A stretch of 64,000 bases of DNA from Streptomyces sp. Ag109_O5-10 (lineage in GTDB: Bacteria > Actinomycetota > Actinomycetes > Streptomycetales > Streptomycetaceae). Positions 42,111 through 50,150 of this stretch are shown here, piece by piece. The DNA lies in contig NZ_FNTQ01000001.1 of NCBI RefSeq assembly GCF_900105755.1, forward strand, positions 310,001 through 374,000. Reading direction: 5' to 3'. The notes under the pieces are model-generated. The model was not told where the DNA came from. It searched no databases and was given only the letters and a program-made list of their open reading frames with translations. Numbering within the stretch: the stretch's first letter is position 1; every line of letters begins with the position of its first letter. A program made the translations under genes and the position numbers.

Positions 42111-43382
42111 ATGACGCAGTCGCTTCCGGGGCAGCGCCCTGCCCAGGAGCAGGCTTTCACGGGGCACGGTCGGCCACCCGTCGTCGTGATCGGCGCCGGG
42201 CCCTACGGGCTTTCGGTGGCCGCCCACTTGCGGGCTGCGGGGGCGCCGGTGCGCGTCTTCGGTGACGTGATGGGCAGTTGGCGGCACGCCATGGCCACCG
42301 GGATGTACCTGAAATCGACGCCGGACGCGACCGATCTGTCGGCGCCGGAGCCCGGCGGCACGCTGGCGGACTTCCGACGCGTGCACAGCGAGCCGGAACT
42401 GACCGAGCTGACACCGATCCCGTGCGACGTCTTCGTGCGGTACGGGCAGTGGTTCCAGAAGCGGTACGTGGGTGAGGTCGAGCCGGCCCGGGTGACGGCC
42501 GTCGAGCGGGCGGCGTCCGGGCCCGGCTTCGTCGTCCGGCTGGACGACGGATCGGCGATGGCGGCCTCGGCCGTCGTGGTGGCGACGGGGCTGAACGGTC
42601 TCGCCCATGTCCCGGACGAGTTGCGGCGGCTCGCGCCCGAGGGACCGGGCCCGCGGGCGCGGGTGTCGCACACCAGCCACCACACGGACCTCTCGGTGTA
42701 CGCGGGACGCCGGGTGGCCGTCATCGGCGGCGGTCAGTCCGCGCTGGAGAGCGCCGCGCTGCTGCACGAGGCGGGCGCCGAGGCGCAGGTCCTGGTGCGT
42801 GAGCGGACGGTGCTGTGGGGCATGGAGCCGGAGCTGTCGCGGCCCTGGACGCAGCGGGTGACCAAGCCGGCCTCGCCGCTCGGCACGGGGTGGATCCTGG
42901 CCGGGGTCTGCGCGTCACCGGGTGCGGTACGCCGGCTGCCCGCGGCGGCGCGGCTGCTGCTGTTCCGGCGGGCGCTCGGCCCGTCGGGCGGCTGGTGGCT
43001 GCGGGACCGGGTGGAAGGCGTCGTACCGGTGCGCACCTCGCGCCGGGTCACGGGCGCCGTGGTCCGGGGACCGGAGGTGCGCCTGGACGTCGTGGGCCCC
43101 GGGGGCGAGCGGGAGTCCCTCGCGGTCGACCACGTGCTGGCGGCCACCGGTTACCGGCTGGACCTGGACGCGCTGCCGTTCCTGTCACCCGCGGTGCGGG
43201 ACGCCGTGGCGTGCGTGCCGGGCTCGAAGGCGCCCGCGCTGCGGGGGACGTTCGAGTCGTCGGTGCCCGGCCTGTACTTCACCGGTTCGCTGGCGGCGCC
43301 GATGTTCGGGCCGATGATGCGGTTCGTGGCGGGCACGGAGTTCGCCGCCGTACGCATCGCCCGGCACGTCGCGGCCGCCTGA
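42111..43382 (+). CDS. FAD/NAD(P)-dependent oxidoreductase
   Basis: A 423-residue flavoprotein with two dinucleotide folds: VVVIGAGPYGLSVAAHL (FAD, residues about 23-40) and RRVAVIGGGQSALESAALL (NADPH, about 200). HVLAATGYRLDL and the ending SVPGLYFTGSLAAPMFGPMM are typical of flavin monooxygenase-like proteins related to ornithine/lysine hydroxylases. GGAGGA precedes the ATG. It lies next to the butyrolactone-type signalling genes on the opposite strand. An enzyme of this kind could modify a signal molecule, but adjacency is the only evidence. Confidence 0.87.
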   Translation: MTQSLPGQRPAQEQAFTGHGRPPVVVIGAGPYGLSVAAHLRAAGAPVRVFGDVMGSWRHAMATGMYLKSTPDATDLSAPEPGGTLADFRRVHSEPELTELTPIPCDVFVRYGQWFQKRYVGEVEPARVTAVERAASGPGFVVRLDDGSAMAASAVVVATGLNGLAHVPDELRRLAPEGPGPRARVSHTSHHTDLSVYAGRRVAVIGGGQSALESAALLHEAGAEAQVLVRERTVLWGMEPELSRPWTQRVTKPASPLGTGWILAGVCASPGAVRRLPAAARLLLFRRALGPSGGWWLRDRVEGVVPVRTSRRVTGAVVRGPEVRLDVVGPGGERESLAVDHVLAATGYRLDLDALPFLSPAVRDAVACVPGSKAPALRGTFESSVPGLYFTGSLAAPMFGPMMRFVAGTEFAAVRIARHVAAA

Positions 43383-43433
43383 GAAACCTGTCGACCGACC
43401 CTGGCGAACCCCTCGCCGGTCCCGGCGGGCCCG

Positions 43434-44068
43434 TCAGCCGATCCGGGCGAGCGGGTCCGCCGTACCGGGTGCCGGGGTGCCGTCGGCGGGAGCCGACAGT
43501 ACCGACTGCCGCATGCGGCCCAGTGCGGCCGAGGGCTCCAGGCCTGGTCGCGCACCAGGGTGGTGCGCAGTCGCCGGAAGGCGTCCGGGGCGTCGCTGCT
43601 CCGGCCCGAGCGGTGCAGGGCGAGCATGAGCCGGCCGCACAGGCTCTCGTGGGTGGGGTACAGGTCGGCCGGCACCGTGAGTTCGGGGATCAGCTCACGG
43701 TGCCGGCCGAGCCGGAGGTCGGCCTCGATCCGCTGGTCCAGCGCGCACAGCCGGCTCTCCTCCAGTCCCTGGATCCGGATGCTCAGGTAGTCCCCCGCGG
43801 TGACGTCGGCCGGGGCCGGCCCCCGCCACGGGCCGAGCGCGGTGCGCAGCAGGCGGCCCGCCGCACGCTGGTCCCCGGCCGCCCTGGTCCGGTATCCGGT
43901 GCCGGCGATCCGCCCGAACTCCCGGGCGTCGCTGGTGCCTTCGCCGCTGTCGAGCAGACAGCCGCCGGGTACGGTGCGCAGGATCTGCCTGGCGGTGCGC
44001 CCGCCCGCGTCCTCGGCGGCCCCGCGCGGCGCCCGGGCAACGAGAGCGCCGAGTACGCCGATGACCAT
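43434..44068 (-). pseudogene. Decayed SARP/BTAD-type pathway activator
   Basis: The ATG at 44068 gives MVIGVLGALVARAPRGAAED, the usual first strand of a SARP. The sequence then jumps from GGRTARQIL to RTVPGGCLLDSGE, skipping the whole winged-helix DNA-binding domain. The bacterial transcriptional activation domain is readable (LLRTALGPWRGPAPADV ... LEESRLCALDQRIEADLRLG ... LCGRLMLALHRSGRSSDA). Near 43540-43552 the frame breaks, and the C-terminus (PGLEPSAALGRMRQSVLSA ... DPLARIG) is in another frame. With no DNA-binding domain and a frameshift it cannot be a working activator. It follows the receptor gene at 44453, a usual place for a receptor-controlled SARP. Confidence 0.75.
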
Positions 44069-44421
44069 GCCGTCCGCCCGCTCGTCCGCCACCGGGGGTG
44101 GTGCGGGGCGGATCCTGGGCACCCCTGAGTCAAAAACGGCGCGGACGGTTTGTTTGTCAACCGCACTCCGGCCGGACGACGCGGTCTCAGTCTGGGGCGG
44201 GAGAGGCCCTGCCGGGTCGGGACCGACGGGAGCCGCTTGACCGTCACACCCCACCGGCGCCCCGGGCAGCACGGAAGTTGGACGGTCGGATTCCCGCGGG
44301 ACCTGGGGTATCGCGATTCGAAGAACCTCGGTGGACAGCACGTTGGGCAGGCTCGCCGGTGTTCGGAGGCCGCGCCGGCTCCACCGTGAGGGAATCGGCG
44401 TCGGTTGACCTATGTGAGCAA
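44069..44421. other. Control region left of the receptor gene, no gene
   Basis: No coding sequence is supported. On the minus strand there is a TTGACA (forward TGTCAA at 44154-44159) and a TTGACT further on (forward AGTCAA, about 44130), both possible -35 elements for the SARP remnant. Confidence 0.45.
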
Positions 44422-44441
44422 CAAACCAGGCAGATGGTTTG
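44422..44441. promoter_or_regulatory. ARE-like operator CAAACCA-N6-TGGTTTG
   Basis: Perfect 7-bp arms around GGCAGA, 12 bp beyond the stop of the receptor gene and upstream of the SARP remnant. Size, AAACC/GGTTT content and symmetry match autoregulatory elements bound by ArpA/ScbR-type receptors, which commonly lie before SARP genes. Confidence 0.6.
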
Positions 44442-44452
44442 GTCCGAGCTCG

Positions 44453-45118
44453 TCAGGCCTCGGTGGGCACGGGCGGTTCCAGCCGACGGCGCTCGACTTC
44501 CTCGACGACCCGGGCACCCCGGTCGGGCGCGGTGTCCAGCCGGATCAGGGCCGCCGGAGTGGCTATGGCCGGCAGTACGTGGTTGTAGAGGACGGAGATC
44601 CGGTCGTTGAGATCGGTCCAGTCGGCGACCACCTCCGACATGAACTGGGTCCCGATCCAGGCCCCGAGGAAGCACTCGGCGGTCTCGCGCGGTGTGACGT
44701 GCGGCAGCACCTCGCCGCGCTCCTTGGCCTCCACCAGTTTGTCCGTCACCAGCTCGGTCCAGGCGGGCCAGGCGCTGCCGAACAGGGAGCGCCCCTGGAT
44801 GTCGGCGGAGAGCCTTATGCCGGCGAGGAGAATGACCTCTTTGGGGATGCGGTGGGCCAGCGTCATGCCGATGTCCACCCACTCCTGGAGCTTCAGTTCA
44901 CGCGGCACCCAGTAGTCGTCGCTGATCTGGGCGTTGATCACGCCGCGCGCGAGCGCTTCCTTGGAATCGAAGTGGAAGTACAGGGCGCCTTTGGTGACTC
45001 CGGCCCGTTCGAGGATCTCGGCGATCGTCGCCGCCGTGTACCCGCGTTCGGCGAAGACCGCGGCGGCGGCCTCGACAACGGCGCGGCGGGTCCGAATCGC
45101 ACGCTCCTGACGCGCCAT
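44453..45118 (-). CDS. Gamma-butyrolactone receptor-type TetR repressor
   Basis: A 221-residue TetR protein of the ArpA/ScbR class. The N-terminus MARQERAIRTRRAVVEAAAA and the HTH TIAEILERAGVTKGALYFHF are diagnostic of signal receptors. The ligand domain keeps the tryptophan (PAWTELV) that contacts the butyrolactone in studied receptors, and the ending HVLPAIATPAALIRLDTAPD RGAR is also typical. By my count about 32 acidic against 27 basic residues give an acidic protein, as in true receptors rather than basic pseudo-receptors. GGAGGGG precedes the ATG at 45118. It presumably represses afsA-type and SARP-type promoters until the signal binds. Confidence 0.88.
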   Translation of the reverse strand: MARQERAIRTRRAVVEAAAAVFAERGYTAATIAEILERAGVTKGALYFHFDSKEALARGVINAQISDDYWVPRELKLQEWVDIGMTLAHRIPKEVILLAGIRLSADIQGRSLFGSAWPAWTELVTDKLVEAKERGEVLPHVTPRETAECFLGAWIGTQFMSEVVADWTDLNDRISVLYNHVLPAIATPAALIRLDTAPDRGARVVEEVERRRLEPPVPTEA

Positions 45119-45156
45119 GGGGACCCCTCCTCGGTCAAAACAAAACCGGACGTGAC

Positions 45157-45184
45157 GTACCTTACCCCAATCGGGGACGGGTAC
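45157..45184. promoter_or_regulatory. 28-bp imperfect palindrome upstream of the receptor gene
   Basis: GTACC-N3-CCCC and GGGG-N3-GGTAC arms around AATC, 39 bp before the receptor start. It may be an autoregulatory site, or simply a stem-loop. It does not closely match the CAAACCA element at 44422. Confidence 0.4.
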
Positions 45185-45283
45185 TTCGGCCGCACAGGGC
45201 GGCCTCACGGTCGGTCCTGCCGCCGTCCCGCCCCGATCGCGCGCCGCGGCCGGCCCCTGGCGCGGGTGACCCTTCCCCGCAGT

Positions 45284-45425
45284 TCACCAGGCGGTGCGCC
45301 CGCCGTCCACGGTAGACGTGGCACCGTGACGAAGGTCGCCCCGGTCACCCCACGACCGGGCGGCGGCCTCCGGGTTTCCTCCGGACCTGCGGCACGGGAC
45401 AGCGGAGTGTACTCGACGGCGGCCG
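45284..45425 (-). pseudogene. C-terminal remnant of a short-chain dehydrogenase (ketoreductase)
   Basis: On the minus strand EYTPLSRAAGPEE matches the PLGRxGxPEE segment of SDR enzymes. The sequence then loses the helix and resumes TGATFVT, followed after a missing base (ACGGTGCC where ACGGGTGCC is expected) by GATSTVDGGRTAW and a stop at 45284. This is the typical SDR end (FVTGATxTVDGGxTAW). The N-terminal NADPH-binding half is absent. It lies between the receptor and HAD genes. Butyrolactone clusters often carry an SDR that reduces the 6-keto group, so this may be its leftover. Confidence 0.65.
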
Positions 45426-45473
45426 CGCAGAGGCGGTCGTAGGGTTCGACGGTGACCTCGACGGTCCGCCGGC

Positions 45474-46208
45474 TCACCCGTGCTGCGTCGAAGAGCGGGC
45501 GGCGAGGGAGTCCGCGTCCTGCCAGACGGTGCCGAGACCGGCCTCGCGGTCGAGGGTACGCAGGCGTTCCTCGTCGATCTCGGCGAGGCTGCCGACCAGG
45601 TGCCGGACACCGAGTTCGCGCATCAGCTCGCGCTGGAAGCCGTGTTCGAAGGTACTGGGGCGGCCGACGAAGGGCACTTCCAGTTCCTTGGCGTGGCCGG
45701 CGAAGCGGGCGACGTCGTCGATGAAGAGGGCCTGGTGGTAACCGAGGCCGAAGCGGTCGCGGACGATCTCCCGGATACCGGGGCGGAAGCCGTCGGTGCA
45801 GATGTAGTGCGGGGCGGTGAACAGGTGCTCCCAGGCGCCGAGATGACGGCGGAAATGGGTCTCGTCGAGGCCGCCGTAGCAGATGACGTCCAGACCCAGG
45901 CCGCGCAGCCGGTGCAGGAGATCCTCGGCGCCGGCGAGGGTGTGGACGGGGTGGTCGCGCAGATGGTCCTCGCGTTCGGCGAAGTAGTCGGCGATGGCCT
46001 CCTGTTCGCTCACCCCGGCGCCGGTCTCCTCCAGCAGCACCTTCGCGGCCGCGAGCCGGGACTGCGAGAAGAGCCGCTGCTCCAGTTCCCGGGTGTAGGT
46101 GCCGCCGTACTTGAGGACGAGCCGGTGCAGGACGGGACTGAAGCTGTCGTTGAGCAGGACGCCGTCGATGTTGACGGCGGCGAGGCGCAGGGTGCGCAGT
46201 GCTTCCAT
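45474..46208 (-). CDS. HAD-fold protein with Asn at the nucleophile position
   Basis: A 244-residue haloacid-dehalogenase-fold protein. Motif I reads LAAVNIDGVLLND: the first Asp of the usual DxDG(T/V), the catalytic nucleophile, is Asn. The second Asp is kept. Motif II-like CYGGLDET, a motif III-like DGFRPG and the motif IV pair in ALFIDDVARFAGHAK are present. HAD phosphatases occur in autoregulator gene sets (for example MmfP with MmfL), where they dephosphorylate intermediates; whether this one is catalytic is uncertain. The ATG at 46208 has GAGAGGGAGAG upstream. It is divergent from the AfsA-type gene. Confidence 0.85.
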   Translation of the reverse strand: MEALRTLRLAAVNIDGVLLNDSFSPVLHRLVLKYGGTYTRELEQRLFSQSRLAAAKVLLEETGAGVSEQEAIADYFAEREDHLRDHPVHTLAGAEDLLHRLRGLGLDVICYGGLDETHFRRHLGAWEHLFTAPHYICTDGFRPGIREIVRDRFGLGYHQALFIDDVARFAGHAKELEVPFVGRPSTFEHGFQRELMRELGVRHLVGSLAEIDEERLRTLDREAGLGTVWQDADSLAARSSTQHG

Positions 46209-46606
46209 GGGGGTCTCTCCCTCTCGCGGGCCGTTCGACAATCATGCAGGGGCCGTCGGGGCGGAGGGAGGATCAGGTACGGCGGCGGGCTGGTCAACTC
46301 CGCGGAATCCGGCCGGAAAAGGCCGTCGGCCGGGTTCTTTCGAGGGCGGTGCGGACTTCGGCTCCGACGGCAACGAGCCGGCGACATCCGCCAGTCAGTC
46401 CGCTTTTCGCCGCGCCCATCGGCATGGTTGAGGGCGAAAATACTTGGCCATACCATCACCGAGCGGAGTCATGCATGGATCGAGTCCCACCGCACTTGGC
46501 GAATCCTTTACCTGGTGGCCGACCCGAGAAAACCGGTAGGTCCGTATCTTATAGGCGTCGAACAGGGATTCAAGCCAACGAAGAGCATTCCGACGGGGGG
46601 TCGTCC
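46209..46606. promoter_or_regulatory. Divergent control region of the HAD and AfsA-type genes
   Basis: 398 bp with no supported gene. At 46529-46550 the sequence AAAACCGG-N5-CCGTATCTT is an imperfect inverted repeat resembling an ARE and overlaps a -10-like TATCTT. A GGGGGG ribosome site (46594-46600) precedes the GTG at 46607. Confidence 0.45.
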
Positions 46607-47563
46607 GTGGGTCTGTCCGCCGGCGAGATCGGTGTCGGTCTGCCCATACCGCCTCGGCTGACCACCACGGTCCCCAAGGAGTACGTCCATCGCGCCTCCC
46701 TCGCCGAGGTGTTCCTCACCGGCTGCACCGCCGAGGACGACGGGCTGCGGTTCTCCCTCACCGGCCAGTGGCCCCGCGCCCACACGTTCTTCAACAGCGC
46801 CGACGGTTCGAGCCATGACCCGCTCCAGGCCGCAGAGACGTTTCGGCAGGCCGGCATGTTCGTGACGCACGCGGAACACGGTGTGCCGCTCGGCCACCAC
46901 TTCGTGCTGTGGTCGCTCAGTTGCCACACGGATCTGGAGCGGCTGCGGATAGCCTCCCGCCCCACCGACTTCCGGCTCGACGTGGTCTGCCCGGACCCCG
47001 CACCGCGCGGCCGCGCCTCCGCGCGCCGGATGGGCATCGGGTTCACCTTGCGCCGGGACGGCGTGACCGTCGCCCACGGGGAGGGGCGGTACTCCGTCGT
47101 GACGCCGCCCGTGTATGCCCGGCTGCGCGCCAACCGGTCCGCGAGACAGCCGGCTTCGGCCGGCCCGGCCGTCGCCGCCGGGCCGATGCCACCGGCGTCC
47201 GTGGGCCGCACCTCCCCCGCCGACGTGGTGCTGACGGCCACGGACGTGCCGGACCGCTGGCTGCTCACCCCGGACCTGGACCACCCGATCCTGTTCGACC
47301 ACGGCGGCGACCACCTGCCCGGCATGGTCCTGATGGAGGGCGCCCGGCAGGCCGCCTGCGCCCGGCTGGCGCCCCGGGCGCTGATCCCGGCGAGCACGTC
47401 CTCGTCGTTCCACCGCTACGTCGAACTCGACAGCCCCTGCTGGATCGACGTCACGGGGGTGACGGCCAGGGACGACGGCACGGCGACCGTCGACGTCGTC
47501 GGTGTGCAGGACGGCGAGACCGTCTTCACGTCCACGGTGAGCGGGCCGGTCGACCTGGCCTGA
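46607..47563 (+). CDS. AfsA/ScbA-family autoregulator synthase
   Basis: A 318-residue protein with two hotdog-type A-factor repeat domains (about 20-165 and 195-315). The VPKEYVHRASLAEVFLTGC start, RQAGMFVTHAEHGVPLGHHF in the first repeat and GDHLPGMVLMEGARQAACAR in the second are the family hallmarks. AfsA enzymes condense a beta-ketoacyl-ACP with dihydroxyacetone phosphate, the first committed step toward gamma-butyrolactones; the MmfL branch leads to furans. The GTG at 46607 follows a G-rich ribosome site; the open frame to 46199 runs through the promoter. With the receptor and HAD genes it forms a signalling locus. Confidence 0.9.
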   Translation: MGLSAGEIGVGLPIPPRLTTTVPKEYVHRASLAEVFLTGCTAEDDGLRFSLTGQWPRAHTFFNSADGSSHDPLQAAETFRQAGMFVTHAEHGVPLGHHFVLWSLSCHTDLERLRIASRPTDFRLDVVCPDPAPRGRASARRMGIGFTLRRDGVTVAHGEGRYSVVTPPVYARLRANRSARQPASAGPAVAAGPMPPASVGRTSPADVVLTATDVPDRWLLTPDLDHPILFDHGGDHLPGMVLMEGARQAACARLAPRALIPASTSSSFHRYVELDSPCWIDVTGVTARDDGTATVDVVGVQDGETVFTSTVSGPVDLA

Positions 47564-47635: not shown

Positions 47636-48316
47636 TCAGCGACGGTGACTGAAGGCATGCCGGTCCTCCACGGCCGGGCGGGCGAGGCCGTGCCGCTCCT
47701 CCACCGGACGGTGGGCAACGCCGTGCCGCTCCTCCATGGGGCGGTGAGCGACTCCGTGCCGCTCCTCCACCGGACGGTGGGCAACGCCGTGCCGCTCCCC
47801 CATGGGGCGGTGGGCGACACCGTGCCGCTCCTCCACCGGACGGTGGTGGTGCGGGCCCCAGGAGGCGGAGTCGACGTAACGCCCGCGGTCGTTGCGCAGG
47901 GTGGCGGTGTCGGCGTCGCGGTTCCACACGGAGGACCGGCGGTCCTGGTACAGGTCCGTCCGGGAGTCCCGGCCCTCCCCGGTGTGGACGCGGACCGTGG
48001 CACCGCCCGCCAGCCGGTAGTGGCGGAAGGTGTAGGTGTTGCCCGCGGCGTCCGACAGCGACCAGCCGCTGAGGTCGGCGTCCCGGCGCGAGATGTTCGT
48101 GACGTCCACCCACTCCCGGTTCAGCGCGCGGCCGGAGAAGACCGCGCGACCCTGCAGATCGTGCTGTACGGCACTGATGACGACCGCGTCACGGTGCGGC
48201 ATCGGGGGCCGAGCGGCGGCCGCCGCGGCCGGCAGGGCCGTGACGCCCACCAGAGCGGCCGCCACGGCGGCGGCGGAGCCGAGACGGCGGGCGGTCACGG
48301 AGACGGAAACGGACAC
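47636..48316 (-). CDS. Secreted lamin-tail-domain protein with 11-residue tandem repeats
   Basis: A 226-residue exported protein: signal peptide (SAAAVAAALVGVTALPAAAA, residues about 10-35), then a lamin-tail domain (NREWVDVTNISRRDADLSGW SLSD through NRDADTATLRNDRGRYVDSASW), then a C-terminal tail of about six 11-residue repeats with consensus HRPVEERHGVA. The tail is rich in His, Arg and Glu and could bind metal or polyanions. The GTG at 48316 follows AAGGGGG; the frame is open to 48589, but that part is not signal-like. Lamin-tail domains in bacteria are usually extracellular and often sit beside nucleases or phosphatases; here an EEP-type enzyme lies divergently at 48813. Confidence 0.82.
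   Translation of the reverse strand: MSVSVSVTARRLGSAAAVAAALVGVTALPAAAAAARPPMPHRDAVVISAVQHDLQGRAVFSGRALNREWVDVTNISRRDADLSGWSLSDAAGNTYTFRHYRLAGGATVRVHTGEGRDSRTDLYQDRRSSVWNRDADTATLRNDRGRYVDSASWGPHHHRPVEERHGVAHRPMGERHGVAHRPVEERHGVAHRPMEERHGVAHRPVEERHGLARPAVEDRHAFSHRR
47655..47852 (-). repeat. 33-bp coding tandem repeats
   Basis: About six 33-bp units encode the 11-residue repeats. Odd and even copies alternate (Pro-Val against Pro-Met), giving a 66-bp higher-order period, so the array grew by duplicating pairs. The DNA copies are nearly identical in the centre and degenerate at both ends. Confidence 0.8.
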
Positions 48317-48812
48317 GTGGTCCCCCTTCGCGGGGTTCGAGCACACCCCGGTCGCGTGCGGCACGAAGCCGCAGGCCGCGCGGGATGTGTGGAGCGGGAC
48401 GGCGACCGGTCGGCCGCGCAGCCACACCCTGCGCCCCGGCCGGGCGCGGACCGGGCGCCACACGGCGCCTATTACGGATCCTTCGCTTTCCCGTGACTCT
48501 CGGATGTAATGTCCATTTACTAGTTGAATGGGCGGGTTTGACGTCTCTTCACCCTGTTTCGCCCCGCAGGCAACGGCCTCGACCGCCACCGGACCGACGG
48601 GTGAACGGGTCTCGGGTCACCCGAAAGTGAGTAACAGTCAGCGCCCGATCGGCCGTGCGGAGAGAACCCGATCTTTCGCGCGTCACCAGGAATTTCCAAA
48701 CTGGTTAGTAACAAGGGGGGTTCGGGAGAAAGCGTTTACCGCTACGTTTTGCCGTGCCTCATTGGCATGCTCACATCCTTCAGCGCACACCCTCCCCGTA
48801 GGAGACACCCCC
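48317..48812. other. 496-bp divergent intergenic region
   Basis: No gene is supported. It contains an AT-rich segment for this genome (about 48500-48535, TGTAATGTCCATTTACTAGT) and a second near 48700-48760, where promoters for the divergent lamin-tail and EEP genes are likely. The GTAGGAG ribosome site of the EEP gene is at 48798-48804. Confidence 0.5.
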
Positions 48813-50150
48813 ATGCGCAGACTCGTTGCCTGTCTGGCGGCCGCGGTCGCCGCTCTCGGCGGGCTCACGGCGACGGCCACCCCGGCCGCGGCGGCCGGCT
48901 CGGGCACGTTCAGCGTGCTCACGTACAACGTCGCCGGACTTCCGCAAGGCCTGTCGAGCGCACCCACCCCGCGCGACACCAGCACCACGGAGATCGGCAA
49001 GCGCATCGCGCCGTACGACGTCGTCAACGTCCAGGAGGACTTCAACTACCACGCGTACCTGTACGCCACCGACACGCATCCCTACCGCACCGCGACCAGC
49101 GGCGGCGCGGGAATCGGCAGCGGCCTGAACACCGTCTCCACCTACGGCTGGGACGAGGACGACTTCGAGCGCGCCGGCTGGAACTCCTGCCAGCTCGACT
49201 CGGGCGACTGCCTCACGCCGAAGGGCTTCACCTTCATGCGCGAGCGGCTCGCCGAGGGCGTCTACGTCGACTTCTACAACCTGCACACCAACGCGGGCAC
49301 GAACGACGGCGACGAGGCCTCCCGGGCCGCCAACCTCAGCCAGCTGACGTCCTTCATCAGCACCCACTCGGCCGGCAACGCCGTCGTGGTGATGGGTGAC
49401 ACCAACACCCGCTACACCCGCTCCGCCGACACCATCGCGGAGTTCGCCTCGGACAACGGGCTCACCGACGCCTGGGTGCAGCTGATCCGCGGCGGCAGCG
49501 CGCCCGCCAAGGGCAGCGACGCGCTGGTCTGCGACCAGTCCGGCGCGACCGTGCCCAACACCTGCGAGGTCGTCGACAAGGTCCTGTACCGCGGCAGCAA
49601 GCTGGTGAACCTGCACGCGACCTCGTACAACAACGAGCACGCCAAGTTCCTGACGAGCGACGGGCTGATGCTCTCCGACCACGACCCGATCACGGTCGGC
49701 TTCTCCTGGTCCGAGAACGCGGACTTCCAGCTGAGCGACCAGTTCGGCGGTCCGCACGGCGACTACTACCAGGACATCGACAAGGTCGCCGCCGGCGCCC
49801 GCGCCACCAGCATCTCGCTGCGCTCCGGCTCCCGCGTCGACCAGGTCGGCATCGCGCTCGCCGACGGCACGACCCTGACCCACGGCGGCACCGGCGGCAC
49901 GGCGTCCTCACTGACGCTGGGCAGCGGCGAGTACGTGACGACGGCGTACCTGTGCGAGGGCAAGTACAACAACACGACCCGCATCTTCTACGCGAAGTTC
50001 ACCACCAACCTGGGCCGCACCCTCGCGGGTGGTACGACGACCTCGAACTGCGTGACCCGCACCGCCCCGTCGGGCTGGCAGATCGCCGGCTTCCACGGCC
50101 GCTCCGGCGACGAGCTGGACAAGGTCGGCTTCATCTACACGAAGCGCTGA
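48813..50150 (+). CDS. Secreted sphingomyelinase-like EEP hydrolase with C-terminal lectin-like domain
   Basis: A 445-residue exported enzyme. The signal peptide ends at TPAAAAG (about residue 29). Residues 33-300 form an endonuclease/exonuclease/phosphatase domain with TYNVAG, NVQEDFNYH (metal Glu), YNLHTNAG, VVMGDTNTRY and LSDHDPITVGF (catalytic His). This order fits neutral sphingomyelinase/phospholipase C-type members. The last 130 residues (DQFGGPHGDYYQDI ... GRSGDELDKVGFIYTKR) look like a jacalin-type beta-prism lectin domain, which could target membranes or glycans. Confidence 0.87.
   Translation: MRRLVACLAAAVAALGGLTATATPAAAAGSGTFSVLTYNVAGLPQGLSSAPTPRDTSTTEIGKRIAPYDVVNVQEDFNYHAYLYATDTHPYRTATSGGAGIGSGLNTVSTYGWDEDDFERAGWNSCQLDSGDCLTPKGFTFMRERLAEGVYVDFYNLHTNAGTNDGDEASRAANLSQLTSFISTHSAGNAVVVMGDTNTRYTRSADTIAEFASDNGLTDAWVQLIRGGSAPAKGSDALVCDQSGATVPNTCEVVDKVLYRGSKLVNLHATSYNNEHAKFLTSDGLMLSDHDPITVGFSWSENADFQLSDQFGGPHGDYYQDIDKVAAGARATSISLRSGSRVDQVGIALADGTTLTHGGTGGTASSLTLGSGEYVTTAYLCEGKYNNTTRIFYAKFTTNLGRTLAGGTTTSNCVTRTAPSGWQIAGFHGRSGDELDKVGFIYTKR

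Follow-up and report, generated by a model that had tools for sequence, protein, structure and literature searches.

A compact signalling locus of Streptomyces sp. Ag109_O5-10, located at positions 42111..47563 of an analysed 64,000-nucleotide stretch (NZ_FNTQ01000001.1, positions 310,001-374,000; hereafter the window, whose coordinates are used throughout), most likely descends, judging by sequence comparison, from loci of the SRB/SAB type with an srrX-srrP-srrG-srrA-like organization, that is, from producers of 4-hydroxy-3-methylbutenolide signals, and from neither furan nor classical γ-butyrolactone loci. It is a stripped descendant of a known kind, and the part worth testing is an asparagine found family-wide at the nucleophile position of its so-called phosphatase, a haloacid dehalogenase (HAD)-like protein. 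The explanation that best accounts for the whole is a stripped SRB/SAB butenolide locus with an eliminating HAD, an unreduced signal and sensing by the receptor; we hold it tentatively, with slightly less than even confidence. In a preliminary description, the locus had been read as a butyrolactone/furan-type signalling set; its observations were confirmed, and its interpretation was partly supported. The argument turns on three genes:

46607..47563 (+): AfsA/SrrX-type butenolide synthase, 318 aa, GTG start; assigned by NF041195 and by identity to and grouping with SrrX
45474..46208 (-): SabP/SrrP-type HAD partner, ATG start, with N13 (counted from the ATG) at the nucleophile position and with the acid/base D15 and the motif IV pair D164-D165 kept
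44453..45118 (-): ScbR/SrrA-type autoregulator receptor, 221 aa, isoelectric point (pI) 5.51; assigned by NF041196

Origin of the AfsA-type synthase

The synthase scored 133.9 bits against Pfam AfsA and 347.4 bits against the NCBIfam ScbA/BarX model (NF041195, cut-off 200). It is 53% identical to SrrX of plasmid pSGRIFU1 (S. griseofuscus, L021), which we take to be a near-twin of S. rochei pSLA2-L, and 35% identical to MmfL. The pSGRIFU1 proteins were treated as the srrX, srrO, srrP and srrA products of pSLA2-L, the gene names being those of PMC7564063. In a tree of 90 AfsA rows, the window protein fell within a 26-row group holding SrrX (SH-aLRT 99), and the two also grouped in a smaller tree of 29 rows (SH-aLRT 94); both the outgroup, MmfL with its L138 relative, and the second AfsA of the same genome (6.105 Mb) were separate from it in the 90-row tree. 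A nine-protein alignment, with catalytic positions not drawn from ScbA mutagenesis data, revealed no loss of residues. A search of the AfsA profile against solved structures gave one match, at chance level.

Plasmids were searched for AfsA and HAD, and species genomes were scanned with the HAD alignment, 80 of the 120 confirmed loci being kept. AfsA was present within the fetched DNA in 83 of the 87 plasmid and species stretches carrying the HAD, and the order AfsA / (cytochrome P450) / HAD / short-chain dehydrogenase/reductase (SDR) / receptor recurs in plasmid and species-genome relatives, pSGRIFU1 included. Since the AfsA groups with SrrX, this gene order recurs, and the SRB and SAB signals are 2-substituted 4-hydroxy-3-methylbutenolides (PMC7564063), the ancestry is most likely of the SRB/SAB type. 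An SrrX-grouping AfsA and an adjoining SabP/SrrP-type HAD were found; the SabD/SrrG-type ketoreductase is a 3' remnant only, and the locus is therefore a descendant of the SRB/SAB kind, not a complete member. AfsA-type proteins are also encoded on eight Rhodococcus plasmid records.

The chemical class, called uncertain in the preliminary description, can be narrowed by the grouping with SrrX, away from MmfL, although AfsA similarity is a poor guide to the product according to PMC12301235. This last point, together with the AfsA family membership and the NCBIfam label (γ-butyrolactone biosynthesis), speaks for an A-factor/SCB-type γ-butyrolactone as the product of the window locus. Such a product is nevertheless improbable: the window AfsA groups with SrrX, no dedicated enoyl-reductase adjoins it among the genes read, and the genome has a separate AfsA locus for which that assignment looks right. 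In this second locus (6096000-6115500, L105), which resembles classical γ-butyrolactone loci, AfsA (6.105 Mb) is accompanied by a ScbR-type receptor, a ScbR2-like protein and a reductase of the epimerase type; a SabP-type HAD is absent.

Furan-signal loci with MmfL, MmfH and MmfP, to which the gene content had been likened, share by name the AfsA, the HAD, the flavin enzyme and the receptor. This reading was rejected as extremely unlikely, since the HAD branch, the type of flavin enzyme and the AfsA tree position all differ: the window HAD is not MmfP-like, the window flavin enzyme is of the Pyr_redox type whereas MmfH is acyl-CoA-dehydrogenase-like, and MmfL and L138 stand apart in the AfsA tree.

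A HAD partner with asparagine at the nucleophile position

The HAD gene is divergent from that of AfsA, and its product is 60% identical to SrrP of pSGRIFU1. No Pfam family matched it at 1e-3; its predicted model (pLDDT 93.4) has the HAD fold with a cap and clear fold matches. In the HAD superfamily, the nucleophile is the first Asp of the DxD motif. In the profile alignment, the Asn of the window HAD aligns on the first Asp of pseudouridine phosphatase, and by the residue offset of the fold match N13 falls on residue 11 of BT2127 pyrophosphatase, 3qu5 being the engineered D11N form of that enzyme.

Among 121 proteins (the best 120 of 414 matches, and the window protein), Asn occupies the nucleophile position in 112 and Asp in the other nine, while the acid/base Asp two residues on and the motif IV Asp pair are invariant (121/121). 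Asn was likewise found in 83 of 88 loci, a count biased by seed patterns that allowed only N or D at the key residue; the 121-protein set is free of that limit. The rows counted include copies (L021/L073, L020/L040). In the 103-row HAD tree, with two state changes in total, Asp is found in the outgroup and otherwise only in a nested clade of 14 rows (SH-aLRT 97). Four of the five loci in the Asp clade (L020, L040, L044, L047 from S. panaciradicis, and L084) also show a P450, and their product may differ. A distant HAD relative in G013 (L120, 156780-157508; 37% identical) has Asp at the nucleophile position and the same CYGG and RPG motifs (II and III); its neighbours, read by eye, are ketosynthase and aldo-keto reductase genes.

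Other HAD-superfamily proteins of the same genome have Asp in 30 of the 30 read, P-type ATPases included (33 matches, 30 readable; 28 passed the motif test of the script, and the Asp of the remaining two was read by eye). Of the 392 genomes of the genus that were searched, three others hold close copies of the window HAD. In the open-licence literature, searches for reports of an Asn-nucleophile HAD in such a context found none.

Gene losses and constraint

Reading frames are uninterrupted for all genes listed in the preliminary description, and family scores and the predicted HAD fold bear out its AfsA-type synthase, HAD protein, receptor and flavin oxidoreductase. The SDR and SARP (Streptomyces antibiotic regulatory protein) remnants that it mentioned were also located, and a third loss, that of a pseudo-receptor between the receptor and the SARP, was added. 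The other features of the locus, including predicted autoregulatory elements (AREs), are:

42111..43382 (+): flavin oxidoreductase, Pfam Pyr_redox-type; no class operator in front of it in the operator scan
about 43433..44068 (-): SARP pseudogene lacking the winged-helix domain; BTAD retained, late frameshift
44130..44151 (-): operator (ARE), predicted, before the SARP pseudogene; 0 mismatches; alignment with relatives
near 44200..44255 (-): ScbR2-type pseudo-receptor gene remnant, about 15 codons, start codon changed; alignment with relatives
44421..44443 (-): operator-like palindrome, formerly before the lost pseudo-receptor gene; alignment with relatives; sole match in the genome
45143..45164 (+): operator (ARE), predicted, before the receptor gene; 2 mismatches; identical in all 7 orthologous loci, the window included
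about 45285..45405 (-): SabD/SrrG-type ketoreductase (SDR) gene remnant, 3' end; alignment with intact copies
46530..46551 (+): operator (ARE), predicted, in the AfsA/HAD divergent promoter; 0 mismatches to the pattern

Six orthologous loci (L025-L030, from S. shenzhenensis, S. hyaluromycini, the metagenome-assembled genome SH_71_13, S. humi, Ag109_O5-1 and S. fuscichromogenes) have the gene order of the window, the same receptor operator, and an AfsA 83-92% identical to that of the window. The SDR is intact in five of them; in L027 it is gone too, with other breakpoints. The SDR loss in the window and in L027 may have a single origin: the two group in both trees (support 89 for AfsA and, with P0001, 88 for HAD), yet the breakpoints differ. 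For P0001, HAD identity is 95% across 237 tree columns. Of the six loci, only L029 is without the pseudo-receptor. A full SARP match was also found in five, the match in L028 being cut by the end of the stretch; in the window, the frame 43151-44341 matches BTAD only (113.2 bits), and alignment with L026, L027 and L030 revealed the winged-helix deletion and the late frameshift. Relative to these loci, little is left of the ketoreductase in the window and almost nothing of the pseudo-receptor, and the SARP is without its DNA-binding domain. The idea of a full signal-making set consequently fails, the ketoreductase being deleted.

Changes private to the window, at codons otherwise invariant among relatives, were counted as nonsynonymous (N) and synonymous (S): 3N/5S in AfsA, 3N/4S in HAD, 1N/11S in the receptor, 2N/7S in the flavoprotein (L025, partial there, left aside) and 7N/1S in the SARP fragment (L028 left aside). 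AfsA, HAD and receptor together differ from the SARP fragment (Fisher test, p 0.0032); the private nonsynonymous-to-synonymous ratio (pN/pS) is 0.18 for AfsA, 0.25 for HAD, 0.03 for the receptor and 2.65 for the SARP remnant. The three intact genes look to be under constraint. In L027, the AfsA private changes are 7N/4S, and relaxation is possible there; G432, taken as the genome of L027, is 8% contaminated.

The flavoprotein gene occurs in all six orthologous loci (partially in L025) and in none of 82 other stretches at 40 bits, and is kept as a neighbour only within this species group. An SrrO-like P450 was not found next to the window locus, and 6'-oxidation as in SRBs is therefore not expected from it.

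Receptor and operators

The more likely start of the receptor is the ATG at 45118. The protein scored 208.7 bits against NCBIfam ScbR (NF041196, cut-off 150), and its ligand-pocket Trp aligns with that of AvaR1, the best solved relative, which agrees with the acidic, Trp-bearing receptor of the preliminary description. It is 70-80% identical to the first receptor of four plasmid loci and 58% identical to SrrA of pSGRIFU1; against the 58-80% to the true receptors of these five loci stand 31-33% to pseudo-receptors, which, with the acidic pI, speaks against its being one of these. A true-type ScbR/ArpA receptor is supported, and ligand binding is predicted. Two more receptors above the ScbR cut-off are encoded in the same genome (5569326-5569883 and 2216953-2217522) with no adjoining AfsA gene; within 3.5 kb, one has an SDR-type and the other a P450-type match.

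Operators before the receptor gene (45143-45164) and the synthase gene (46530-46551) were predicted by conservation only. A class operator pattern was built from the window and six relatives; one form per operator was scanned, and other forms could escape. Within the SrrX-type AfsA group, all 25 loci carry the pattern (68 sites), including 19 that had no part in building it; of 63 other loci, 13 carry it (28 sites), and the reversed pattern gave 0 in both. The AfsA-side operator has the same 22 letters in loci whose AfsA is 53-65% identical.

In the own genome, six sites matched the class pattern at up to 2 mismatches (three local and three distant; reversed control 0). The distant sites have 1, 2 and 2 mismatches, and one local site also has 2. 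At up to 3 mismatches, 49 sites against 28 for the reversed control were uninformative. The best distant site lies upstream of a gene whose product is presumably SepH. It was tried as a receptor target and not counted: G016 (L146), where no close copy of the locus occurs and the single HAD match reaches 56% identity, has the site with one letter changed, in a stretch that is nearly the same. G432 has the site. The rows of L143, L147 and L149 in this comparison were on the other strand and were not judged there; for the two other distant sites, the neighbouring reading frames were listed only. The palindrome at 44421-44443, for which a genome-wide scan had been proposed, matched only locally at up to 3 mismatches, no second match being found in the genome. 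Whole-genome scanning with the class and pseudo-receptor operator patterns gave no support for receptor action at a distance, a part of the earlier interpretation. The recognisable targets predicted for the receptor comprise the promoter of its own gene, the one between AfsA and HAD, and those of two genes that are now dead.

The same data bear on whether the locus is dying, with no useful signal made and the remaining genes on the way out. Three genes are broken (ketoreductase, pseudo-receptor and SARP), no good operator lies beyond the locus, no local target survives, and L027 is also without SDR, with the AfsA changes given above. On the other hand, the AfsA, HAD and receptor of the window are full length with the low private pN/pS reported above, all four operators are present, and even smaller sets with an intact AfsA persist on several plasmids. 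We consider a dying locus rather unlikely, though a serious rival.

Proposed mechanism and product

Enzymes of the AfsA family condense a β-ketoacyl thioester with dihydroxyacetone phosphate to phosphorylated butenolides. At these intermediates, the AfsA-dependent routes to γ-butyrolactones, furans and 4-hydroxy-3-methylbutenolides are believed to diverge. In a heterologous host, sabA-sabP-sabD expression gave SABs, so that this trio suffices for 4-hydroxy-3-methylbutenolides (PMC6930871); the step by which these arise "remains to be elucidated" as of 2020 (PMC7756379). The SRB/SAB core is an isomer of the compound that a phosphatase would release, with CH3 and a ring CH(OH) in place of CH2OH and a ring CH2, so that hydrolysis alone does not yield it. 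An elimination followed by hydration would suit a HAD that has no nucleophile but retains the base and binds Mg and phosphate.

The following sequence is proposed. First, AfsA would form the phosphorylated butenolide from a β-ketoacyl thioester and dihydroxyacetone phosphate. Second, the HAD, with Asn for the nucleophilic Asp, would probably form no phospho-enzyme; its remaining acid/base Asp could take the ring C4 proton, the dienolate would expel phosphate by C-O cleavage, and water would add at C4; this single sequence, with no net redox change, would yield the 3-methyl-4-hydroxy core. Third, in the absence of the linked ketoreductase, reduction at the 1' carbon would probably not take place, leaving a ketone there unless a reductase acts in trans; the predicted ketone resembles the 2-acyl butenolide of gladiostatin. 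Finally, judging from the conserved sites, the signal would release the receptor from two operators, that of the AfsA/HAD promoter and that before the receptor gene; the gene behind the SARP operator is dead, so that the locus shows no evident output gene of its own. Put generally, the SRB/SAB "phosphatase" would be a nucleophile-less phosphate-eliminating lyase/isomerase that converts the phosphorylated 3-hydroxymethyl butenolide to the 4-hydroxy-3-methyl core without P-O hydrolysis, AfsA and HAD would here release an unreduced 2-acyl hormone, and the Asp clade would be a reversion, perhaps with hydroxymethyl products. We regard this wider proposal as rather doubtful, though worth pursuing.

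The HAD could instead be an ordinary phosphatase, its Asn deamidating to Asp, or water attacking directly with help from the remaining Asp, and later steps making the methyl group. It is so named in the SRB and SAB work (PMC7564063, PMC6930871, PMC7756379), Asp is present in the nested clade, and the metal-binding Asp pair is kept in all 121 proteins. However, Asn is kept over most of the 103-row tree, hydrolysis would require an extra isomerase to reach the SRB/SAB core, and the seven annotated HAD-bearing plasmid loci read share no further biosynthetic enzyme. Hydrolysis of this kind has a real, if minority, chance of being correct. Besides deamidation and direct water attack, a purely structural role of the HAD also rivals elimination.

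The retained ketone has its own alternative, a normal 1'-hydroxy butenolide made by an unlinked reductase in place of the lost one, which we consider plausible though not favoured. The own genome encodes an SDR at 6.191 Mb with 55% identity to the one lost here, as represented by L026, and a second, 49% identical, at 6.759 Mb, and SDRs inside other AfsA/HAD loci go down to about 52% identity to the query SDR. Against this, the 55% SDR adjoins a gene read by eye as an aspartate-semialdehyde dehydrogenase and is not in a signalling locus, and identity alone does not show the substrate.

Several of these and other observations weigh against the stripped, eliminating and unreduced locus that we favour. 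In PMC7756379, SabP is listed as a phosphatase required for SABs, and in the alternative scheme proposed in PMC7564063 the C3 unit is a glyceraldehyde 3-phosphate hydrate and phosphate is lost spontaneously. AfsA similarity gives little guidance on the product class, and SabA itself belongs to another AfsA clade (PMC12301235). The nine Asp proteins and the five loci named above form the single Asp clade of 14 rows, and the CYGG and RPG motifs, being the same in the Asp-bearing L120, are no marker of a changed reaction. The 55% identical SDR could reduce the signal in trans, and the counts behind the constraint are small. Moreover, of 23 plasmid records with an AfsA at least 56% identical, seven have a HAD match and 16 have none, and the HAD may be dispensable or supplied from elsewhere.

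Five of the 16 records without HAD were read, all of them linear-plasmid loci: L023 encodes AfsA, a P450, a receptor and a SARP, and L216-L219 encode AfsA, one receptor-type gene (32-34% identical) and a SARP, no HAD or SDR of this kind being found inside the fetched stretches. Their AfsA proteins are 57-63% identical to that of the window (57-59% in L216-L219 alone), and the class operator precedes AfsA in all five. On the 29-row tree, these loci require two state changes, not one. The gene set has thus shrunk repeatedly, and not every such locus has a linked HAD; these related loci without HAD lowered our confidence slightly, from even to just below it for the locus as a whole, and by a similar step, within the doubtful range, for elimination by the HAD. 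L216, L217 and L219 adjoin phosphopantetheinyl transferase and condensation-domain genes, and L218 adjoins a condensation-domain gene.

If the HAD is an eliminase, an enzyme and a mechanism would be available for the unsolved step of this hormone class, a nucleophile-less C-O lyase would be added to the HAD superfamily, and a one-residue sequence marker may help to predict the signal class, a difficult task from AfsA similarity (PMC12301235). The window locus adds a natural experiment in the form of a hormone system pared down to its synthase, the HAD and the receptor.

Neighbouring genes

Beyond the locus, the window encodes a lamin-tail-domain protein (47636-48589, -) with a C-terminal run of near-identical short repeats (HRPMEERHGVA), whose number seems variable, as there are several overlapping L027 matches there, and an endonuclease/exonuclease/phosphatase-type protein with a C-terminal jacalin-like lectin domain (48870-50150, +).

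Comparison with known systems

The furan locus mmfL-mmfH-mmfP (S. anthocyanicus plasmid, L137) shares an AfsA-type synthase, a HAD and a ScbR-type receptor with the window; it differs by a distant AfsA, an acyl-CoA-dehydrogenase-type MmfH and a HAD-IB protein with full catalytic motifs (MmfP, TIGR01490, 126.1 bits, cut-off 98.3), the furan product keeping the hydroxymethyl group. The window HAD did not match TIGR01490, and blastp gave no match to MmfP at E 10 in a nine-protein set. Wild-type BT2127 pyrophosphatase and β-phosphoglucomutase use Asp as nucleophile; these HAD-fold enzymes are about 13-14% identical to the window HAD.

Among closer systems, the stripped plasmid loci L216-L219 have an AfsA-side operator letter-identical to that of the window and likewise lack the SDR, but they are also without HAD and their SARP is intact. 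The sabA-sabP-sabD genes of S. ansochromogenes, compared by the descriptions in the papers, form a similar trio of AfsA, phosphatase-like protein and dehydrogenase, from which the window differs by the lost dehydrogenase and by the AfsA clade (PMC12301235). The loci L025-L030 share the gene order and the receptor operator, the window differing by the loss of the SDR, the pseudo-receptor and an intact SARP. Finally, srrX-srrO-srrP-srrG-srrA of S. rochei pSLA2-L, read on pSGRIFU1, has the same AfsA group, a HAD 60% identical with the same Asn, an SrrA-type receptor and the class operator; compared with it, the window is without the P450 (SrrO), its ketoreductase and pseudo-receptor are deleted, and its SARP is broken.

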